Shown piece by piece: positions 33,049 to 42,285 of a DNA stretch of 64,000 nt. The notes under the pieces are model-generated. The model had not been told where the DNA came from, searched no databases, and saw only the letters and a list, made by a program, of their open reading frames with translations. How positions within the stretch are numbered: position 1 is the first letter of the stretch; every line of letters starts with the position of its first letter. This DNA comes from Hydrogenobacter sp. T-8 (GTDB lineage Bacteria; Aquificota; Aquificia; Aquificales; Aquificaceae), in assembly GCF_011006175.1 (NCBI RefSeq), contig NZ_CP048795.1:186001-250000 (forward strand), written 5' to 3'. The position numbers and the translations under genes are program-made.

Positions 33049-34032
33049 ATGCAGGCACAAAACCTTGAAGAGCTAAAGAGGCTTGTTCTTAAGGTATTGC
33101 CAGAAATTATAAAGGAAGACCCCGTCATAAAGGCTTATATCAAAGACCTACTAAAAGACAGCTTCGCAGAGAAGGATAAGACCGAAGATAGGATAGAAAA
33201 GCTCTATGAGGAGCTGGTAAGACTAAGAGAGGATTCCGAGAAGAGGTGGCAGGAGTATTTGGAGGATAGGGAGAGGGTGTGGGCGGAGTTAGAAAGGCAA
33301 AGGGAAGAGTCTAACAGAAGATGGGAGCAATACATACAAGAAAGAGATAAAATGTGGGCGGAGCTGGAAAGGAGAAGAGAGGAAGAAAGACAAGAAAGGG
33401 AAAGAATGTGGGCAGAGATGGAAAGGAGAAGAGAAGAGGACAAAAAGGAAAAGGAATCAATCTGGGCAGAGTTGGAAAGACAAAGGGAAGAATCTGAAAG
33501 AAAGTGGGAGGAGTATAAGAAAGCTCTTGAGGAGCAAAGAGAAATACTTATGCAACATTCCAAGATACTTGAGGAACACAGCAAAGCTATACAGTTTCTT
33601 ATGGAAGAGGTAAAAAGGCTAAGCAGGAAACATGACTCTACTATTGGTGCTCTCGGAGCTTGCTGGGGGCTACATTCTGAGGAGTCTTTTAGGAATGCTC
33701 TCAAGGGTATACTTGAGGAGAGTTTTCCTGTAAAGGTGGAGAGATATATCAACTACGACAAGGAAGGTATAGTTTTTGGAAGACCAGACCAGATAGAGCT
33801 TGACCTTATCATTAAAAATGGTGAGATAATTGTGGCGGAGATAAAGTCCTCTATGAGTAAGGCTGATGTGTACGCCTTTTTAAGAAAGTTAGACTTTTAC
33901 CAATCTAAGGAAGGCGTAAAGGTTAGCAGAGCCATAATAATATCGCCTATGGTAGACCCAAAGGCAAAAGATGTTGCACTAAAAAATGGTATAGAGGTTT
34001 ATTCTTATGCGGAGGATGTGGAGGGGCTTTAG
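33049..34032 (+). CDS. Trp-punctuated coiled-coil protein with C-terminal PD-(D/E)XK-like domain (DUF3782 type)
   Basis: 327 residues. After a helical N-terminus (~1-60), residues ~65-160 are a charged coiled coil in which Trp recurs at spacings 11, 14, 11, 18, 18 and 14 (motifs like RVWAELERQREESNRRWEQY). The C-terminal ~120 residues contain IELDLIIKNGEIIVAEIKSS, an E-D...ExK pattern of the PD-(D/E)XK fold, and DFYQ. Similar proteins in thermophiles are annotated DUF3782. A DNA-acting role is inferred. It is a single gene with no partner nearby. Confidence 0.75.
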   Translation: MQAQNLEELKRLVLKVLPEIIKEDPVIKAYIKDLLKDSFAEKDKTEDRIEKLYEELVRLREDSEKRWQEYLEDRERVWAELERQREESNRRWEQYIQERDKMWAELERRREEERQERERMWAEMERRREEDKKEKESIWAELERQREESERKWEEYKKALEEQREILMQHSKILEEHSKAIQFLMEEVKRLSRKHDSTIGALGACWGLHSEESFRNALKGILEESFPVKVERYINYDKEGIVFGRPDQIELDLIIKNGEIIVAEIKSSMSKADVYAFLRKLDFYQSKEGVKVSRAIIISPMVDPKAKDVALKNGIEVYSYAEDVEGL

Positions 34033-34107: not shown

Positions 34108-34368
34108 ATGCTTAGAGTTTTTGCTATTAGTTTGATTTTGTTTGGCTTTTTACATGCTTTGGAATTGGACGGAGTAAAAGTAGAAGTTAGAGGGAATACG
34201 CTAAGTGTGGATGGCAGAAGCTATATACTTGGAAAAAACTTGGTAATAGAAAGCCCAACAGGAAACCAGTTAAACATAGATGCATTGAACTATGCAAGGG
34301 CTATAAAGATGGAGTTTAACAGAGCAGGTGAAGTTATTTACATAAAAATCTTAGGATGGTGGGATTAG
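34108..34368 (+). CDS. Small secreted protein upstream of PilY1
   Basis: 86 residues with a signal peptide (MLRVFAISLILFGFLHA) and a compact beta-rich remainder (LDGVKVEVRGNTLSVDGRSY). No family is recognised. SD AGGAGGGT precedes the start, and a TATACT lies just upstream of that. It overlaps the longest PilY1 frame and lies immediately before the preferred PilY1 start, so it is the first gene of the pilus-tip operon; a role in pilus assembly is inferred from position only. Confidence 0.65.
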   Translation: MLRVFAISLILFGFLHALELDGVKVEVRGNTLSVDGRSYILGKNLVIESPTGNQLNIDALNYARAIKMEFNRAGEVIYIKILGWWD

Positions 34369-34370
34369 CC

Positions 34371-37300
34371 ATGAGAAAGGTAGCTGTTTTGACAAAGGCT
34401 TTGGTTTTCCTAATTATATTGCTGATAGGGCCCTCAAGGTCAGCAAATATGTCTGATTACTGCTATGTACCTCCTTTTGTAGGCACAAGCGTAAAACCCA
34501 ATGTCCTTATTGTAATGGACTTCTCTGGCTCTATGCAGTTTCCTGCCTATGTGCCTTGCAATTTTGGAGGCTATAATAATTATGTAGCTCAATGTGGTAG
34601 TAGCACATACTCCTATAACCCAAATCAAACATATTCGGGATATTTTGACCCTGATAAGTGCTATCAATATTCTTCAAGCTTTTTTCAAGAGGCTAGCTGT
34701 AATTGCTCAAACAGAATCGGCTCAAGCAGTTGTATCTCAGGAAACCTTTTAAACTGGATAACTACAACACGAATTGATATCGCTCGTATGGTCTTAACTG
34801 GAGGAAGAACTTCTCAGTCCGGAGGAAATACCTTCCTTGAGAGCGAGGGGGCACAATATACTATAAATGAAAACAACCTAAAATGCAGGTTTAAGATAAA
34901 TGTTAATACCACTACCGATAGGCGGATAACCGTATCAAACTATAACGGCACTTGCCCATTAGGAAATAATACTATATCTAACGCTCGGATCAGGATTAGA
35001 CCTTCTGATCCGAACTCTATAAGAGGAATTATTCATTCTTTCTGTGATACTTCTGACTTGAATGGTCAGGTCAATGAGAAGTGCCAGCTCATTATGGAAT
35101 TTATGGTATTTGCAAGTGATGGTAGATATGGAGAGATCAGAACTGGTAAAAATGCAACCCTTGCAAGCCTGATTAGTGCTATAAACAATGAGCAACCCTA
35201 CTACGGTACACCTACAGGTGAAGCTTTGTGGGAAGCCTATGACTTTTATAAACAAAGCAACGACTATAACTATGAAGCAAATTCAGCTTATATTAATCGC
35301 GGAAATGGAAATGTAGATCCTTACTATGACGGTTCTGGAGGAAACAGCTATCCTGTGCCTTGTAGAAAGGGTTTTGTTTTACTGCTTTCAGATGGTGCTT
35401 GGAATGGTATTGTGGACCCAGTTGTGCCAGCCCGTATTATGGCAACACAAGACCTCAGAAGCGACCTATCTGGAAAGCAAAATGTTTATACATACGCAGT
35501 TTACGCCTTTGGAGATTTAGACCCTGGTACAAGTCTTCAAGGAAGGCAGGCAATGATAACTACCGCTATTTTTGGCGGCTTTGAAGACATTGACTCTAAC
35601 ACTTGGCCTTTCCCATTTACTGGAATTCAATACCCAAATGGAAGTGGAACTTGCTCTTCCCTTGAGTACACTGTAAGAACTAATATTCAAACGACTTCAA
35701 CTACCTATTGCAACAGTAGAGGTGTGACTTATTCCCTTCCCCAGTGCAATCCTCCAAATAATTGGGACCCCAAGTGTGCGGAGTGGGATACAGTTGGGAA
35801 TACTCCTAAGGACGGACTACCCTACAACTTCTTTGAAGCTAATGATGCGGAATCTTTGAGAAATGCCTTGCTTTCTGCCTTCTCCGAAATTCTCAAACGT
35901 GCCTCCTCTGGTGCCACTGTGGCAACCTTGGCTTCAAGAACTAGTATTTCTTCTGTGGTTCTACAACCTTACTTCTATCCCAGATACATCAGGCAAGATG
36001 GGACAGAGATATCATGGATAGGTTTCTTACGCAGTTTCTGGGTGGATACAAAACAAAACCTTAGAGAGGATACTAACACCAACAAAATACTTGAAATGGC
36101 TGGTAATGTTTTTGACAAGATATTCCAGTTTGTATTCGACCCAAACGCCAACGAGACAAAGGTAGCCATTCTCAGTGGTAGCGACCCAGACAATGCTTGC
36201 AGTATGGAAGCTCTGAGAGGTGTCAATGAGCTAAGACCTCTCTTTGATGCAGGATGCAGGCTTGCTGTCGAAAATCCCAACGATAGAAAGATATACTACA
36301 ATAAAGACGGTAACTTGGTAGAGTTTACTACAGGAGAGGCAAGTTATGTAAGGAGCATATGGCAGTCTATAGAAAACTCCGTAAATAATGATACAGGAGC
36401 AAGTTGTGTTATAAGATATCTCCGCGGGGAGAAGGTATCCTCAGACACAAATTGCAATGCGGTTCTTGGTCTTGTGAATAGGATTAGGGAGTTCGACACT
36501 GCATCTTTGGGTGCTTTGTGTCCCACCTACTCAGTCAGCGGGGAAAGGACCTGGAAGCTGGGAGATATAATATATTCCACGCCCTCTCTAGTCTCCGCAG
36601 AACCTCTAAACATATACCATCTTAGATACAGCGACAGCACCTATCTTGAATACATAAGGAGAAGCCAATATAGGAACAGAGCATCCTTTAGCTTTATAAG
36701 TGCTAATGATGGTATGTTGCATGTCTTTAGGATTGGCTCTATCAAAGAGAGGAAAGTCTGTTCCAACAACCAAAATATGGAGTGCAGCGAAGATTCGGAC
36801 TGCCCTGGCGGATACTGTATACCCAATCAGAACGCACCAGTTAAACTGATCAACGCACCAAACAACAACAATACAGACCTTATAGCACGCGAGGAGTGGG
36901 CTTTTATTCCACGGAACGCACTGCCTTATCTAGTCTGGTATGGAAGAAGTGACTACTGCCACGTGCCAACGGTGGACTATAGAACCATAGTGGTGGATGC
37001 CTCCATAGGTGGTGGCTCAAATGAAAGCAAGACTGTAAACAGCTGGAGGACCATATTGGTGGGAACTATGGGATTTGGGGGCAAGGCTATTACAGCAGGA
37101 GATTATACATACTCCTCTGCAATCTTTGCCCTTGACCTGACGGGTTGGCTCGATGGCACCAGCGATAGACCAACTCTTCTTTGGGAAAGGCCTATACCAG
37201 ACAACACACTAACGCTTTCCTTCCCTGCAATAGTCAGGCTTGGTGACCCAGATAAGAACGGCGAGTGGTATGTGGTTGTAGGAACAGGTCCGATGGAAGC

Positions 37301-38381
37301 TGGCGATAAACAGGCAACATCCGGCTCTGAAAGTTATGCAAGCTCAACAAAACTCTACTTTATAAACCTTAGAAACGGCGATGTGGTGAGGGATATAACC
37401 TTATCTCTCCCCTCTGGTGTAATGGCTGCAGTGGGTGATATAATGCCCTTTGATGTGGACAACGACTACAGGGATGACGTGCTTTACTTTGGGCTTTATG
37501 GAAGGGGGAACAATGGAAATTCTTGGGGCAACTTTTACAGGCTAACCCTAAGAAGTGGAAGCAGTTACAAGTCTGTGAACTCCCTTAGTGCGTCAGATAT
37601 ATCTACAGCAGTAGACCTGTCTTCCTTTAATACGGGCAGTCATAGACCACCAGTCTTTGGAGCACCTAACGCTACAAAGGATGAGATGGGTGCCTTATGG
37701 GTCTTTTTTGGAACAGGAAAGTTCCTGAGCTCCTTAGACAAAACTATACCTTATAACAACTTCCTAATTGGCTTTAAGGATGACTGCTGGAATGGCACAT
37801 GCTCCAACTCGTATACAAGAGGCAACATGGACAACACAACTGGAAGCACTACATCTGCGGTCGTCTCGGAACTCAAAAACATGTGTATCTGCACAAGTGC
37901 GGGATGCAACACAGAGCAGGTGGTTTCAAGCACCAGCTATACTGCACTGCCCCTACCCGTGTCAAGAGGCTGGTATTACCAACTAAGTGGTGAGGCTATA
38001 TACTCAAGACCAGTTGTCTTTGGAGGAATAGTAGACGCTCTTACCTTTGTCCCACCAGGTGATGTATGCCAAATGGAAGGTAGGTCTAACCTTCTTACCC
38101 TCTACTACAAGTCGGGCACTCCCTATCCCAGACCTGCGGTTCTGTCACCTAATGCGGTCTCTGGAAGTAGGACTATAGGCTCCACTGTTCAGGTTCTTGG
38201 ACACATCCAAGCGGGACAAGGTGTTCCGCCTATAGGTACTCCTTTCCAGATAAGCATGGCACCAGGTCAAAGCGCACAGTATGAAAAATTCGTCCAGCTC
38301 TCAAGTGGTCTTATACTTAGGTTCCCTCAGCAGGTAGGAACGGAAGCCCAGGGGAGGTTTATACTGTGGATAGAAAAGTAA
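34371..38381 (+). CDS. pilY1: PilY1-like type IV pilus tip adhesin
   Basis: About 1336 residues. A signal peptide is followed by a von Willebrand A-like domain with the MIDAS motif DFSGS (~50) and a C-terminal PilY1 beta-propeller (~700-1250) with the calcium loop DVDNDYRDD (~1029). It is Cys-rich in the N-terminal half. A C-x7-C-x4-DC-x4-C module (~796-816) recurs in two minor pilins downstream. PilY1 sits with minor pilins at the pilus tip, where it promotes extension and adhesion. ATG at 34371 is preferred over 34356 because the signal peptide starts there. The end overlaps the next gene by 16 bp. Confidence 0.88.
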   Translation: MRKVAVLTKALVFLIILLIGPSRSANMSDYCYVPPFVGTSVKPNVLIVMDFSGSMQFPAYVPCNFGGYNNYVAQCGSSTYSYNPNQTYSGYFDPDKCYQYSSSFFQEASCNCSNRIGSSSCISGNLLNWITTTRIDIARMVLTGGRTSQSGGNTFLESEGAQYTINENNLKCRFKINVNTTTDRRITVSNYNGTCPLGNNTISNARIRIRPSDPNSIRGIIHSFCDTSDLNGQVNEKCQLIMEFMVFASDGRYGEIRTGKNATLASLISAINNEQPYYGTPTGEALWEAYDFYKQSNDYNYEANSAYINRGNGNVDPYYDGSGGNSYPVPCRKGFVLLLSDGAWNGIVDPVVPARIMATQDLRSDLSGKQNVYTYAVYAFGDLDPGTSLQGRQAMITTAIFGGFEDIDSNTWPFPFTGIQYPNGSGTCSSLEYTVRTNIQTTSTTYCNSRGVTYSLPQCNPPNNWDPKCAEWDTVGNTPKDGLPYNFFEANDAESLRNALLSAFSEILKRASSGATVATLASRTSISSVVLQPYFYPRYIRQDGTEISWIGFLRSFWVDTKQNLREDTNTNKILEMAGNVFDKIFQFVFDPNANETKVAILSGSDPDNACSMEALRGVNELRPLFDAGCRLAVENPNDRKIYYNKDGNLVEFTTGEASYVRSIWQSIENSVNNDTGASCVIRYLRGEKVSSDTNCNAVLGLVNRIREFDTASLGALCPTYSVSGERTWKLGDIIYSTPSLVSAEPLNIYHLRYSDSTYLEYIRRSQYRNRASFSFISANDGMLHVFRIGSIKERKVCSNNQNMECSEDSDCPGGYCIPNQNAPVKLINAPNNNNTDLIAREEWAFIPRNALPYLVWYGRSDYCHVPTVDYRTIVVDASIGGGSNESKTVNSWRTILVGTMGFGGKAITAGDYTYSSAIFALDLTGWLDGTSDRPTLLWERPIPDNTLTLSFPAIVRLGDPDKNGEWYVVVGTGPMEAGDKQATSGSESYASSTKLYFINLRNGDVVRDITLSLPSGVMAAVGDIMPFDVDNDYRDDVLYFGLYGRGNNGNSWGNFYRLTLRSGSSYKSVNSLSASDISTAVDLSSFNTGSHRPPVFGAPNATKDEMGALWVFFGTGKFLSSLDKTIPYNNFLIGFKDDCWNGTCSNSYTRGNMDNTTGSTTSAVVSELKNMCICTSAGCNTEQVVSSTSYTALPLPVSRGWYYQLSGEAIYSRPVVFGGIVDALTFVPPGDVCQMEGRSNLLTLYYKSGTPYPRPAVLSPNAVSGSRTIGSTVQVLGHIQAGQGVPPIGTPFQISMAPGQSAQYEKFVQLSSGLILRFPQQVGTEAQGRFILWIEK

Positions 38382-39004
38382 GTGGTTACACTATTATGGA
38401 ACTGTTGGTTATAATTGCCATATTATCCATACTTGCTGGCTTCTTTTTATATCCCATGTTGGTGCAGGTGGCGAGGGAAAGGCTGAGGGCTGGTATGACC
38501 CAATTTGCCAGTGACCTTAACCAGGTAAAGCTTAGGTCTATATCTACGGGTAGCATGTGGGGCATAAGGGTATGCGGTGGTAACGGACAGTATAAGGTCT
38601 TTATAGACCATGATATGAACTGCAGAGATGTGAACCCAAACTGTACCTCAATCGATACTACAAGGGTTTGTTCCGCCGCGCCCAATGCAACATGTTCCGA
38701 TGGTGCTGACTGTTTAGCTAGCTGTGATAATAATAGCGGTAGATGTGTTAATGCCCCTGATGTTATCTGTAACACTGCTAATGACTGTCCTCCTAGCACG
38801 GGTCCCTGCCTTCAAAGAGAGAGACTGATAAGTTTTCCTACCGGCGTAGCACCGGGAAATGATTTTTACGTGGTCTTTGACCGCAGAGGCTACGTGCTGA
38901 ACTACTCCTGCGGTTTTGGTGCTGGAACTTTGACGCTAAGAAACTTCCTTGGGGAAGAGAGAAGGGTCATACTAGACAGACTCGGGAGGGTAAGGTATGA
39001 ATAA
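38366..39004 (+). CDS. Minor pilin, FimT/GspH-like, with Cys-rich modules
   Basis: 212 residues, GTG start. The prepilin site is SG/YTIMELLVIIAIL with Tyr at +1 and Glu at +5. The mature N-helix is followed by a FimT/GspH-like fold and two adjacent Cys modules (~101-150: VCSAAPNATCSDGADC and CVNAPDVICNTANDC). It would be processed by PilD and placed in the tip complex. It overlaps pilY1 by 16 bp and the next pilin by 8 bp. Confidence 0.85.
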   Translation: MDRKVSGYTIMELLVIIAILSILAGFFLYPMLVQVARERLRAGMTQFASDLNQVKLRSISTGSMWGIRVCGGNGQYKVFIDHDMNCRDVNPNCTSIDTTRVCSAAPNATCSDGADCLASCDNNSGRCVNAPDVICNTANDCPPSTGPCLQRERLISFPTGVAPGNDFYVVFDRRGYVLNYSCGFGAGTLTLRNFLGEERRVILDRLGRVRYE

Positions 39005-39701
39005 GAAGGGTTTTACTCTTATTGAACTTTTGGTTGCCACTATACTCTTGCTGATAATAATGATAGGCTTTTTGAGAGGGCTTCTTTTTTATATTCAGTA
39101 TTCTATCCAAGAACAGACAAAGGACAGGGCGCTGGAAATCATGGGGGAGATAGCTTCGAAGGTAGAGTCTATGCCTTACTGTCAGGACAATACTCCCACC
39201 TGCACGAACCATTTCTTACAAGCCAATGGAGGTTATGTAGCAGATTGGCAGAATGCAACTTGTGATATAGCTGGTCAATGTTCCTTTGACAACAGAGACA
39301 GTGACGGCGATGGATTAAGAGACTTTAGAGACCCCTACAACGGCAACAATAATAACTCAAGAGGTAATCCTCTCGGCACAGCGGATTGGCTTAACATAAA
39401 GCCAGGAACTTCATCCGTTTGCAAGCGCGACATAAATAGGCCCTGTACCAGAGAAGAAGACTGCCCTGGAGTGGGTCCCTGCGTTAAGCTATGCGCAGAT
39501 AGAGCTGGCAACCAAATACAAGACTTGATATGCGGGGAGCTTTTTAAAGGTAGATGGATATATGCGGGAGCAACACTCGCTCGAATCGTCAGGTATAATG
39601 TGGAGGTGGGAAAAGGGGTGGGGGTAATAGTGTGGTATTTTGAGCCTTCTTCTGGCAATTATAGGGGCTACGCAACTACTGTGATGAGGGAAAGAAAATG
39701 A
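38997..39701 (+). CDS. Minor pilin, PilV-like
   Basis: 234 residues with prepilin site [15 protein letters not shown]. The body is polar, holds DSDGDGLRDFRDPYN (an Asp-rich loop reminiscent of a calcium site) and one Cys module CKRDINRPCTREEDC (~140-160). Position in the operon after the FimT-like pilin and before PilW-like fits PilV. It overlaps both neighbours by a few bases. Confidence 0.82.
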   Translation: MNKKGFTLIELLVATILLLIIMIGFLRGLLFYIQYSIQEQTKDRALEIMGEIASKVESMPYCQDNTPTCTNHFLQANGGYVADWQNATCDIAGQCSFDNRDSDGDGLRDFRDPYNGNNNNSRGNPLGTADWLNIKPGTSSVCKRDINRPCTREEDCPGVGPCVKLCADRAGNQIQDLICGELFKGRWIYAGATLARIVRYNVEVGKGVGVIVWYFEPSSGNYRGYATTVMRERK

Positions 39702-40660
39702 AGAGAGGTTTCACTCTCATTGAACTGCTCGTAGTGATGGCAATAGCTCTCATAGTTGGTGTGGGTGTTTATGTTGCCTATGTGAACCTTATAAGAGAAG
39801 CGGTAACTAAGTCTATCATCGCAAAGAACGAACAAGACATAACCGCATTGCTTTACCAGATAAGGAAGGACTTCTCCAGTATAGGCTTTGGTGTGGACAG
39901 GAACAGACTTAGAATCGTAGATACCCATGGAACACCTAACGATGGAGTAATTGACTGCAACAGCTTAACAGCCTTTGGAAACTTTAACACTGTATTGGCA
40001 AGGTGTAGGGCTAACGACAGGCAAGAGGAACTTTACTTTCTGAGCCTTGCTAGCAGACAGCAGAGGTTTTCTGGATGCTGGTGGAGCACAAACACATTAG
40101 GACAACTCATAAACAGAAGCACCACTTACATGCTTGCGGAATGCCCCCAAAACCTTGATGGAATAGGTAACTGCCTTGCCCTTGACCCAAATAAGAATTG
40201 TGTAGAAACTGGGTGTTCAGTTCGGCCATGCAACACCTACACTTCTCAGGAGAACAGACTTATCTTTTTTGCAGGGGATGGTAGTTATCCAGGGAATTTT
40301 GCAGTTAGATACTACACCTCAGATATCAACCTCCCCAGAGAATGTGCTCCCCAAACCTTTAACCTTCTCAAGGATGTGCAGGGAGATGCCTTGGCTCAAC
40401 CTGTGGCTTCCTGTGTGGGTGCCTTCAGGGTGAGGTATTTCGACGGCAACAATTACTCGGAAAGTATAAATCTCATCCAGAATCTAAGAGCCATAAGAGT
40501 TTGCCTGCTCGTGCAGGTAGGAGGGCGGACTTCTCTGAATATGGAAGTGCCACAGTTTTCTGCGAGCTGTGGTGGAACAATGACAATACCAACGCAAGAT
40601 TGGAGGTGGTATAGATGGCGAGTAGTAGAGGAAAACATTATTTTGGAAAACATAAGATGA
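39698..40660 (+). CDS. Minor pilin, PilW-like
   Basis: 320 residues with prepilin site [17 protein letters not shown]. It is the longest of the four minor pilins, as PilW usually is, and contains several Cys pairs (e.g. CLALDPNKNCVETGC, a looser form of the module in its neighbours). It overlaps the PilV-like gene by 4 bp and the PilX-like gene by 4 bp. Confidence 0.82.
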   Translation: MKRGFTLIELLVVMAIALIVGVGVYVAYVNLIREAVTKSIIAKNEQDITALLYQIRKDFSSIGFGVDRNRLRIVDTHGTPNDGVIDCNSLTAFGNFNTVLARCRANDRQEELYFLSLASRQQRFSGCWWSTNTLGQLINRSTTYMLAECPQNLDGIGNCLALDPNKNCVETGCSVRPCNTYTSQENRLIFFAGDGSYPGNFAVRYYTSDINLPRECAPQTFNLLKDVQGDALAQPVASCVGAFRVRYFDGNNYSESINLIQNLRAIRVCLLVQVGGRTSLNMEVPQFSASCGGTMTIPTQDWRWYRWRVVEENIILENIR

Positions 40661-41136: not shown

Positions 41137-41670
41137 CTACCTTATTACGCACTTTATACCTGCACCTTCACTATGTGTGTTGTTTGTAATCCTGCAGACT
41201 ACCATGAAATCTCCAATCCCGTCGAGCTTTCCAGCCACATAATAGTCTTGTGCAACCTGACCACCACTACAAACAAACTGTGAGCCTCTTGGATTGCCAT
41301 TTTCAATATGCGCGGAATTGTCTGGAGCTGTGCTTAGAACTTTAAAAGATACAGCCCCTCCAGGTGTAGACATCTTGGCATTAGAGGGCTGCAGGTTGTT
41401 TGATGTGTCAAAAACAAGACAGTTCTTAAGAGGAGCTGGCTCACTTCCCACTGTATCAATAACAAAACTTACTGGACTTGTCTGCTCCTTTGTTTGTAAA
41501 CACCAGACAAAAATATCCATAGCACAAGCTCTCACAACCGGTTCAGCATAAGAACTCAACTTTGCCCTTCTCTGATTCTTTGCATAGGAAAACAAACCTA
41601 TAGATACAAGCACTGATATTATGACAAGAACCATTAAAAGCTCTATAAGGGTAAAAGCTCTTATTTTCAT
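41137..41670 (-). CDS. Second type IV pilin (tandem paralogue)
   Basis: About 177 residues from ATG at 41670. The N-terminus reads MKIRA/FTLIELLMVLVII: the processing residue is Ala, not Gly. The body matches the upstream pilin block by block ([34 protein letters not shown]). The frame extends to 41697, but that start would lie inside a terminator hairpin. There is no Shine-Dalgarno site, and a strong terminator lies between it and the first pilin, so it is probably weakly expressed by read-through, or partly silent. Confidence 0.8.
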   Translation of the reverse strand: MKIRAFTLIELLMVLVIISVLVSIGLFSYAKNQRRAKLSSYAEPVVRACAMDIFVWCLQTKEQTSPVSFVIDTVGSEPAPLKNCLVFDTSNNLQPSNAKMSTPGGAVSFKVLSTAPDNSAHIENGNPRGSQFVCSGGQVAQDYYVAGKLDGIGDFMVVCRITNNTHSEGAGIKCVIR

Positions 41671-41704
41671 AAATAAATAAAAATGGGGGCAATACACCCC
41701 CCAT
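41671..41704 (-). terminator. Rho-independent terminator between the two pilin genes
   Basis: On the minus strand ATGGGGG...CCCCCAT with an 8-nt loop (41683-41704), followed by ATTTTTATTTATTT (41671-41682). It is the best hairpin-plus-U-tract terminator in the window, directly after the first pilin stop; the second pilin start codon follows at once. Confidence 0.8.
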
Positions 41705-41709
41705 AAGGC

Positions 41710-42285
41710 TTATTTCACTTGACAACGAACTCCAGTACCAGTAGAATGGGCAGAGTTTGTGATTGTGCAAACTACTATGTAATCACCAATACCATCCATC
41801 TTCCCAGCAACGTGTATGGTATTGCCTACCTCTCCCTGCGTGTTACATGTAAATGTGTCTCCCCTTGGGTTTCCATCAGTTATGTCAGTTGGACTACTTG
41901 GTTCTGAAGTTAGAACCTTAAAGGAAACTGGACCGCCTGGAGTAGTGAGCTTCACGGTATTAGCCTGTAGTGCACCGTTTGCGTCGTATACAAGGCAGTT
42001 TTTGAGGGGAGCATTACCTGTTCCTGTATCTATTGTGTATGAATCTGTCCCGCTTGCTGCTGGCCTTTCTGTACACCAAGCAACTATGTCCATAGCACAT
42101 GCTCTAACCGCAGGTTCCGCGTAGGAGCTTATCCTCGACTTTCTCTGATACTTCATGTAAGACGGCAGGGCTATTGATGCCAATATGGCTATGATGGCTA
42201 TAACCACAAGTAGCTCAATGAGGGTGAAACCCTTTGCCTTGTTGAGCTCTACCGCTTGCCTTGTGGCTCTAAGTAGCTTTTTCAT
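41710..42285 (-). CDS. pilA: Major type IV pilin candidate (PilA-like)
   Basis: 191 residues. A long leader ([19 protein letters not shown]) precedes the processing site [24 protein letters not shown], with Glu5 and Pro22. The mature part has paired cysteines ([31 protein letters not shown]). SD AAGGAGGGT is 5-8 nt upstream. It has a consensus promoter with an upstream direct repeat, a leader hairpin and a dedicated terminator, which fits a highly expressed structural subunit. It faces the plus-strand tip operon. Confidence 0.87.

Follow-up and report, generated by a model that had tools for sequence, protein, structure and literature searches.

We consider it probable that a cysteine-rich module of about 20 residues, found in the tip adhesin PilY1 and in two minor pilins of a pilus-tip operon of Hydrogenobacter sp. 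T-8, is an independent disulfide mini-domain that has entered exported proteins, above all PilY1, through in-frame insertion at their exposed loops. The window analysed here is a stretch of 64,000 nucleotides (contig NZ_CP048795.1, positions 186,001 to 250,000), and coordinates refer to it unless the genome is named. Four cysteines at fixed spacing, their even number and the tolerance of many different loops suggest a closed unit with two disulfides. The four cysteines would pair among themselves, presumably in two bonds that leave the ends of the module close together, and such internal pairing would allow its addition to a loop without disturbing the fold of the host. Among the genomes compared, the spread of the module into the two minor pilins is best read as specific to this species.

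The preliminary description of this DNA had claimed that the same cysteine spacing occurs exactly in four places, and this is borne out. The pattern C-x7-C-x4-DC with a fourth cysteine is found, always in frame and on the + strand, once in PilY1 (CSNNQNMECSEDSDCPGGYC, 36759..36818, C802-C810-C816-C821), twice in a FimT-like pilin (CSAAPNATCSDGADCLASC, 38669..38725, C102-C110-C116-C120, and CVNAPDVICNTANDCPPSTGPC, 38744..38809, C127-C135-C141-C148) and once in a PilV-like pilin (CKRDINRPCTREEDCPGVGPC, 39420..39482, C142-C150-C156-C162). The gap between the third and fourth cysteines is x4 in PilY1, x3 and x6 in the first and second FimT copies, and x5 in PilV. Across the whole family the spacing is C-x7-C-x4-[D/E]C-x2..8-C, and the module usually starts with C[ST]N[DN]. 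When the pattern was searched genome-wide it did not prove common in unrelated proteins: the single complete contig (1,805,817 bp) holds six DNA matches, of which four are the operon copies, the fifth (CTFHYRQTCKYRHDC) is an unrelated sequence recurring identically in several relatives and the sixth carries an in-frame TGA. Shuffling whole proteins produced the spacing by chance with P = 0.001 for PilY1, in 0 of 50,000 trials for the two FimT copies and with P = 0.001 for PilV; with the fourth cysteine included these values became 1e-4, 0 and 1.4e-4. Stricter shuffles, restricted to the cysteine-rich stretch, gave 7e-4, 7e-5 and 4e-3, respectively. The four copies with exact spacing are thus confirmed as genuine and improbable by chance under both designs. 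A similar cysteine spacing, CTxHYRxxCKYRxDC, was seen at genome positions 255163-255207 (L005), in an unrelated context that is conserved in many relatives.

The hosts are an ordinary PilY1 and ordinary minor pilins in the usual tip operon. The three genes are adjacent and slightly overlapping, and their order is retained in relatives. PilY1 (34356..38381, + strand, 1341 aa) has a vWA-like N-terminal part and a C-terminal beta-propeller; it scores 37.5 bits against PF05567 (cut-off 28.1), and the AF2 model of residues 561-1341 (pLDDT 82) has as its best PDB match 3hx6, the C-terminal domain of P. aeruginosa PilY1 (E 1e-18). By family and fold it is therefore an ordinary member of the PilY1/PilC type IV pilus tip adhesins (PF05567, NF040838), from which it differs in carrying a recurrent module of shifting place that we did not find described in the papers searched. 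The FimT/FimU-like pilin (38366..39004, + strand, 212 aa, GTG start) passes the cut-offs of both the prepilin signature PF07963 (23.1 bits) and PF12019 GspH (24.1 bits, cut-off 21), and its AF2 model best matches FimU (4ipu, E 9e-4). It shares with the FimU/FimT and GspH minor pilins the fold of a helix and a beta-sheet, which here surrounds an insert of about 50 residues with eight extra cysteines between strands 2 and 3 (residues 82-152). The third host (38997..39701, + strand, 234 aa) scores 16.0 bits against the TIGR02523 equivalog, below its cut-off of 52.2, and we call it PilV-like only from its operon position, which is as in relatives, and its prepilin signature (PF07963). Two neighbouring regions may be mentioned here. 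Just upstream of the tip operon (33049-34032, + strand) lies a gene whose coiled-coil product has DUF3782 and a PD-(D/E)XK nuclease-like domain. At 41137-42285 on the - strand, a pair of similar prepilin genes in tandem faces the operon and may represent a duplicated major pilin.

A looser version of the module had also been proposed in a PilW-like pilin. The cysteine cluster of this protein (CLALDPNKNCVETGCSVRPC, 40172..40231, + strand, C159 to C178) is spaced C-x8-C-x4-C-x4-C and has no aspartate before the third cysteine. Its first cysteine belongs to a CL[DE]xxxK stretch common to PilW orthologs that lack the remaining cluster. We therefore reject PilW as a fifth carrier.

Are the four copies related to each other and to those of other organisms? 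We built an independent profile from 32 modules from outside Aquificota and set its scores against shuffled decoys. The PilY1 copy reached 21.1 bits (E 4e-6; best decoy 5.5) and is securely placed in the module family by this comparison. The second FimT copy, at 8.1 bits against 6.2 for the best decoy, is probably a member as well. The first FimT copy (5.5 bits, in the decoy range) and the PilV copy (2.8 bits) could be, judged on their spacing, either strongly diverged members or look-alikes. At the DNA level the four operon modules are 43-57% identical to each other and 33-65% identical to the modules of other species. Identity is thus at background, and we reject recent copying between the PilY1, FimT and PilV genes. 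Hence, the suggestion that the module is exchanged is supported over long time spans at the level of the family, with its three phyla, many PilY1 loops and the two sites described below, and is not supported for recent exchange within the operon.

The distribution in orthologs also separates PilY1 from the pilins. Alignment of the FimT and PilV orthologs of 15 other genomes revealed the module in neither protein, so the expected conservation in orthologous pilins fails. In FimT of this genome (G000), the two copies are an additional stretch that lies in the pilin sheet between its strands 2 and 3; the protein has 12 cysteines and its ortholog in G029 has 4, an excess of exactly two four-cysteine units. 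The AF2 model places this stretch poorly (pLDDT 40-51). The PilV module, which the orthologs lack, occupies a variable loop; in G029 and G035 the corresponding loop holds other cysteines. As this loop is already cysteine-rich in these two genomes, local elaboration could have taken place. One might accordingly ask whether only the PilY1 module is a true one, with the first FimT copy and PilV arriving on their own at this spacing, as one well suited to a small disulfide loop. The decoy-range profile scores of these two copies, the background DNA identity and the cysteine-rich PilV loop of the relatives all speak for such partial convergence. Yet, two adjacent genes are unlikely to hold the exact 7-4-D spacing three times by chance, even when the local cysteine content is kept, and the second FimT copy outscores all decoys. 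We regard partial convergence as a possible but distinctly less likely account.

Within Aquificaceae the module occupies different places in PilY1. In this genome it is a clean insertion at what we call site A, a propeller loop following DGMLHVFRIG, where the AF2 model is confident (pLDDT about 81-89). Site A is filled in this genome and in genus g3, and orthologs without the module have short loops. Site B, about 130 residues upstream, is empty here (IWQSIENSVNND, 36366..36389, + strand, from the alignment of PilY1 orthologs) and is occupied by KVCSNxPxxLCxNNGDCxGGxxC in G006, G019, G027, G029, G034, G078, G080 and G084, carriers that span genera g1 (G006), g6, g7 and g10. The history of these sites was followed on a tree of the C-terminal part, since some PilY1 have a different N-terminal half and a full-length tree is misleading. 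This tree rejects the site-B carriers as one clade (AU p 7e-66) and does not reject the site-A carriers as one (AU p 0.08). Polyphyly of the site-B carriers points to repeated gain and loss or to recombination. The site-A module of this genome is 61-65% identical in DNA to site-B modules (G006, G029, G080, G084) and 41-43% identical to the site-A modules of g3. Descent from the g3 module is thus disfavoured, as the DNA is closer to the site-B modules of the neighbours, and this comparison of just 54 bases hints at a relocation from site B to site A.

A wider search extends the range of the module well beyond this family. A module profile run on 136 Aquificota genomes gave matches in 14 at E < 1e-4, and all 14 carry the module in PilY1; a single genome of the 136, the present one, has it also in FimT and PilV. 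One exact scan of GTDB genomes revealed it in records of Patescibacteria, Deltaproteobacteria and Nitrospirae. In Nitrospirota seven of the eight positive genomes have a PilY1 module, in G147 within the loop equivalent to site A, and in a third phylum two PilY1 proteins have one. None of the Patescibacteria matches lies in PilY1. Mapped onto the PilY1 of this genome, with very divergent sequences placed approximately, the insertions fall near residues 76, 117, 151, 265, 310, 350, 671, 695, 768, 801, 963, 1056 and 1132, and within the AF2-modelled part these positions are loops or ends of secondary-structure elements. The other hosts include NHL propellers, glucose-dehydrogenase (GSDH) propellers and Lcl_C proteins. 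A preference for PilY1 as host is indicated by these counts, which come from profiles partly trained on PilY1 modules. We also observed a Nitrospirae PilY1 of 2108 aa (L157:1580-7903:-) with at least 8 modules across its vWA-like region and propeller. Other secreted beta-propellers with the module (glucose/sorbosone dehydrogenase, NHL repeats; L174:667-2784:+, L172:1-741:- and L191) come from a soil Deltaproteobacteria record and from Patescibacteria, and the sequence context of L191 resembles that of L172.

These data also bear on the explanations that come to mind when only this operon is considered. Disulfides stabilise exported proteins and the host belongs to a thermophilic family, and rigidification for growth at high temperature had been put forward on seeing the sequence. 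This is unlikely as the reason for the module, which is present in genomes whose record titles name groundwater, soil or marine sources and gives no match at E < 1e-4 in 122 of the 136 Aquificota genomes. The many positions in one gene family, the in-frame insertion and the patchy distribution might instead evoke a selfish DNA element that, like the Rickettsia palindromic element, spreads copies of itself into genes. Elements of this type are expected to leave similar DNA copies in a genome, whereas the modules here are at background identity, and the eight copies compared in the Nitrospirae PilY1 are also unlike in DNA (at most 61% identical). Significant profile matches in this genome are moreover confined to three genes of one operon, and scarcely more than the cysteine and aspartate codons is conserved, which suggests selection on the protein. 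We judge a selfish origin to be very improbable.

The identical spacing in three proteins of one operon in this genome had further suggested a joint surface, on which the modules of PilY1, FimT and PilV would touch one another in the tip complex. This idea finds no support in the comparisons: the pilin orthologs of the 15 other genomes lack the module, close relatives have it at different places in PilY1, and it is missing from PilX and PilW, which probably lie next to PilY1. In a published model of the Myxococcus tip, PilX and PilW adjoin PilY1, with PilV placed between the shaft of pilins and the other components (PMC7541494). Contact between modules is unlikely to be general, given that carriers and positions vary by species and that the Myxococcus PilV is not beside PilY1, and we give a joint surface only slight credence.

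Does the module have a known counterpart? Compared with Pfam and with solved structures, the module itself had no match. Its closest resemblance is to TIGR04201 (Myxo_Cys_RPT), likewise a small repeat found in exported proteins. The two overlap in a C-x4-DC-x4-C core, and in PilY1 the model overlaps the latter half of the module. The TIGR04201 repeat was first described from TraA, occurs in other myxobacterial surface proteins and was proposed to form a rigid stalk (Pathak et al. 2012, PMC3325183). Against a cut-off of 25 bits, the PilY1 module scored 18.1 with hmmscan and 24.9 in a genome search, or 26.3 together with its neighbours. The site-B module of G084 scored 9.9 bits, the PilY1 modules of G027 and of Nitrospirae gave no match, and neither did FimT and PilV of this genome (hmmscan). 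In TraA the repeats are 22 residues long and in tandem, whereas here single loop insertions bear an added C-x7-C arm. We did not see tandem repeats in the style of TIGR04201: PilY1 and PilV have one copy each, and the two copies in FimT go unrecognised by the model. The module thus resembles TIGR04201 without clearly belonging to it, as the PilY1 score lies around the cut-off, the other copies are below it and the tandem arrangement is lacking. A 2026 survey of myxobacterial PilY1 notes large differences in the number of cysteines and in predicted disulfides (PMC13190605); its text is free of the words "repeat", "insertion" and "loop", and we saw no such module in it. Our search of the literature on Aquificota pili and on cysteine modules in PilY1 found nothing specific.

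How, then, might an inserted disulfide mini-domain serve the pilus? It would decorate the pilus tip with a compact and mechanically stiff unit that resists proteases, one that may come, shift and go in the course of the diversification of the tip adhesin. On exposed loops of the tip it could withstand proteolysis and force, or join in binding. PilY1 is thought to decide to which targets type IV pili attach, and the number of cysteines is among the features that set classes of PilY1 apart. One might speculate further that PilY1 is a landing platform, into which several phyla independently re-insert a ligand-binding cassette that changes the adhesion of the pilus tip, here reaching two pilins as well; we find this rather unlikely. 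A recognisable and so far nameless module, at interchangeable positions of PilY1 and in distant phyla, would be a concrete unit behind part of the variation of this protein, and a profile of it would allow annotators to mark it.

PilY1 seems to vary also at a larger scale. In G035, G029 and G056 the open frames of PilY1 (L039, L040 and L044) are 1615-1660 aa long and match the N-terminal part of the protein of this genome over only about 150 residues, then again from residue 470 or so onward. G029 and G035 are placed differently in the full-length and C-terminal PilY1 trees. This suggests, from the alignments and trees, that the N-terminal domain of PilY1 was replaced by recombination in these three genomes.
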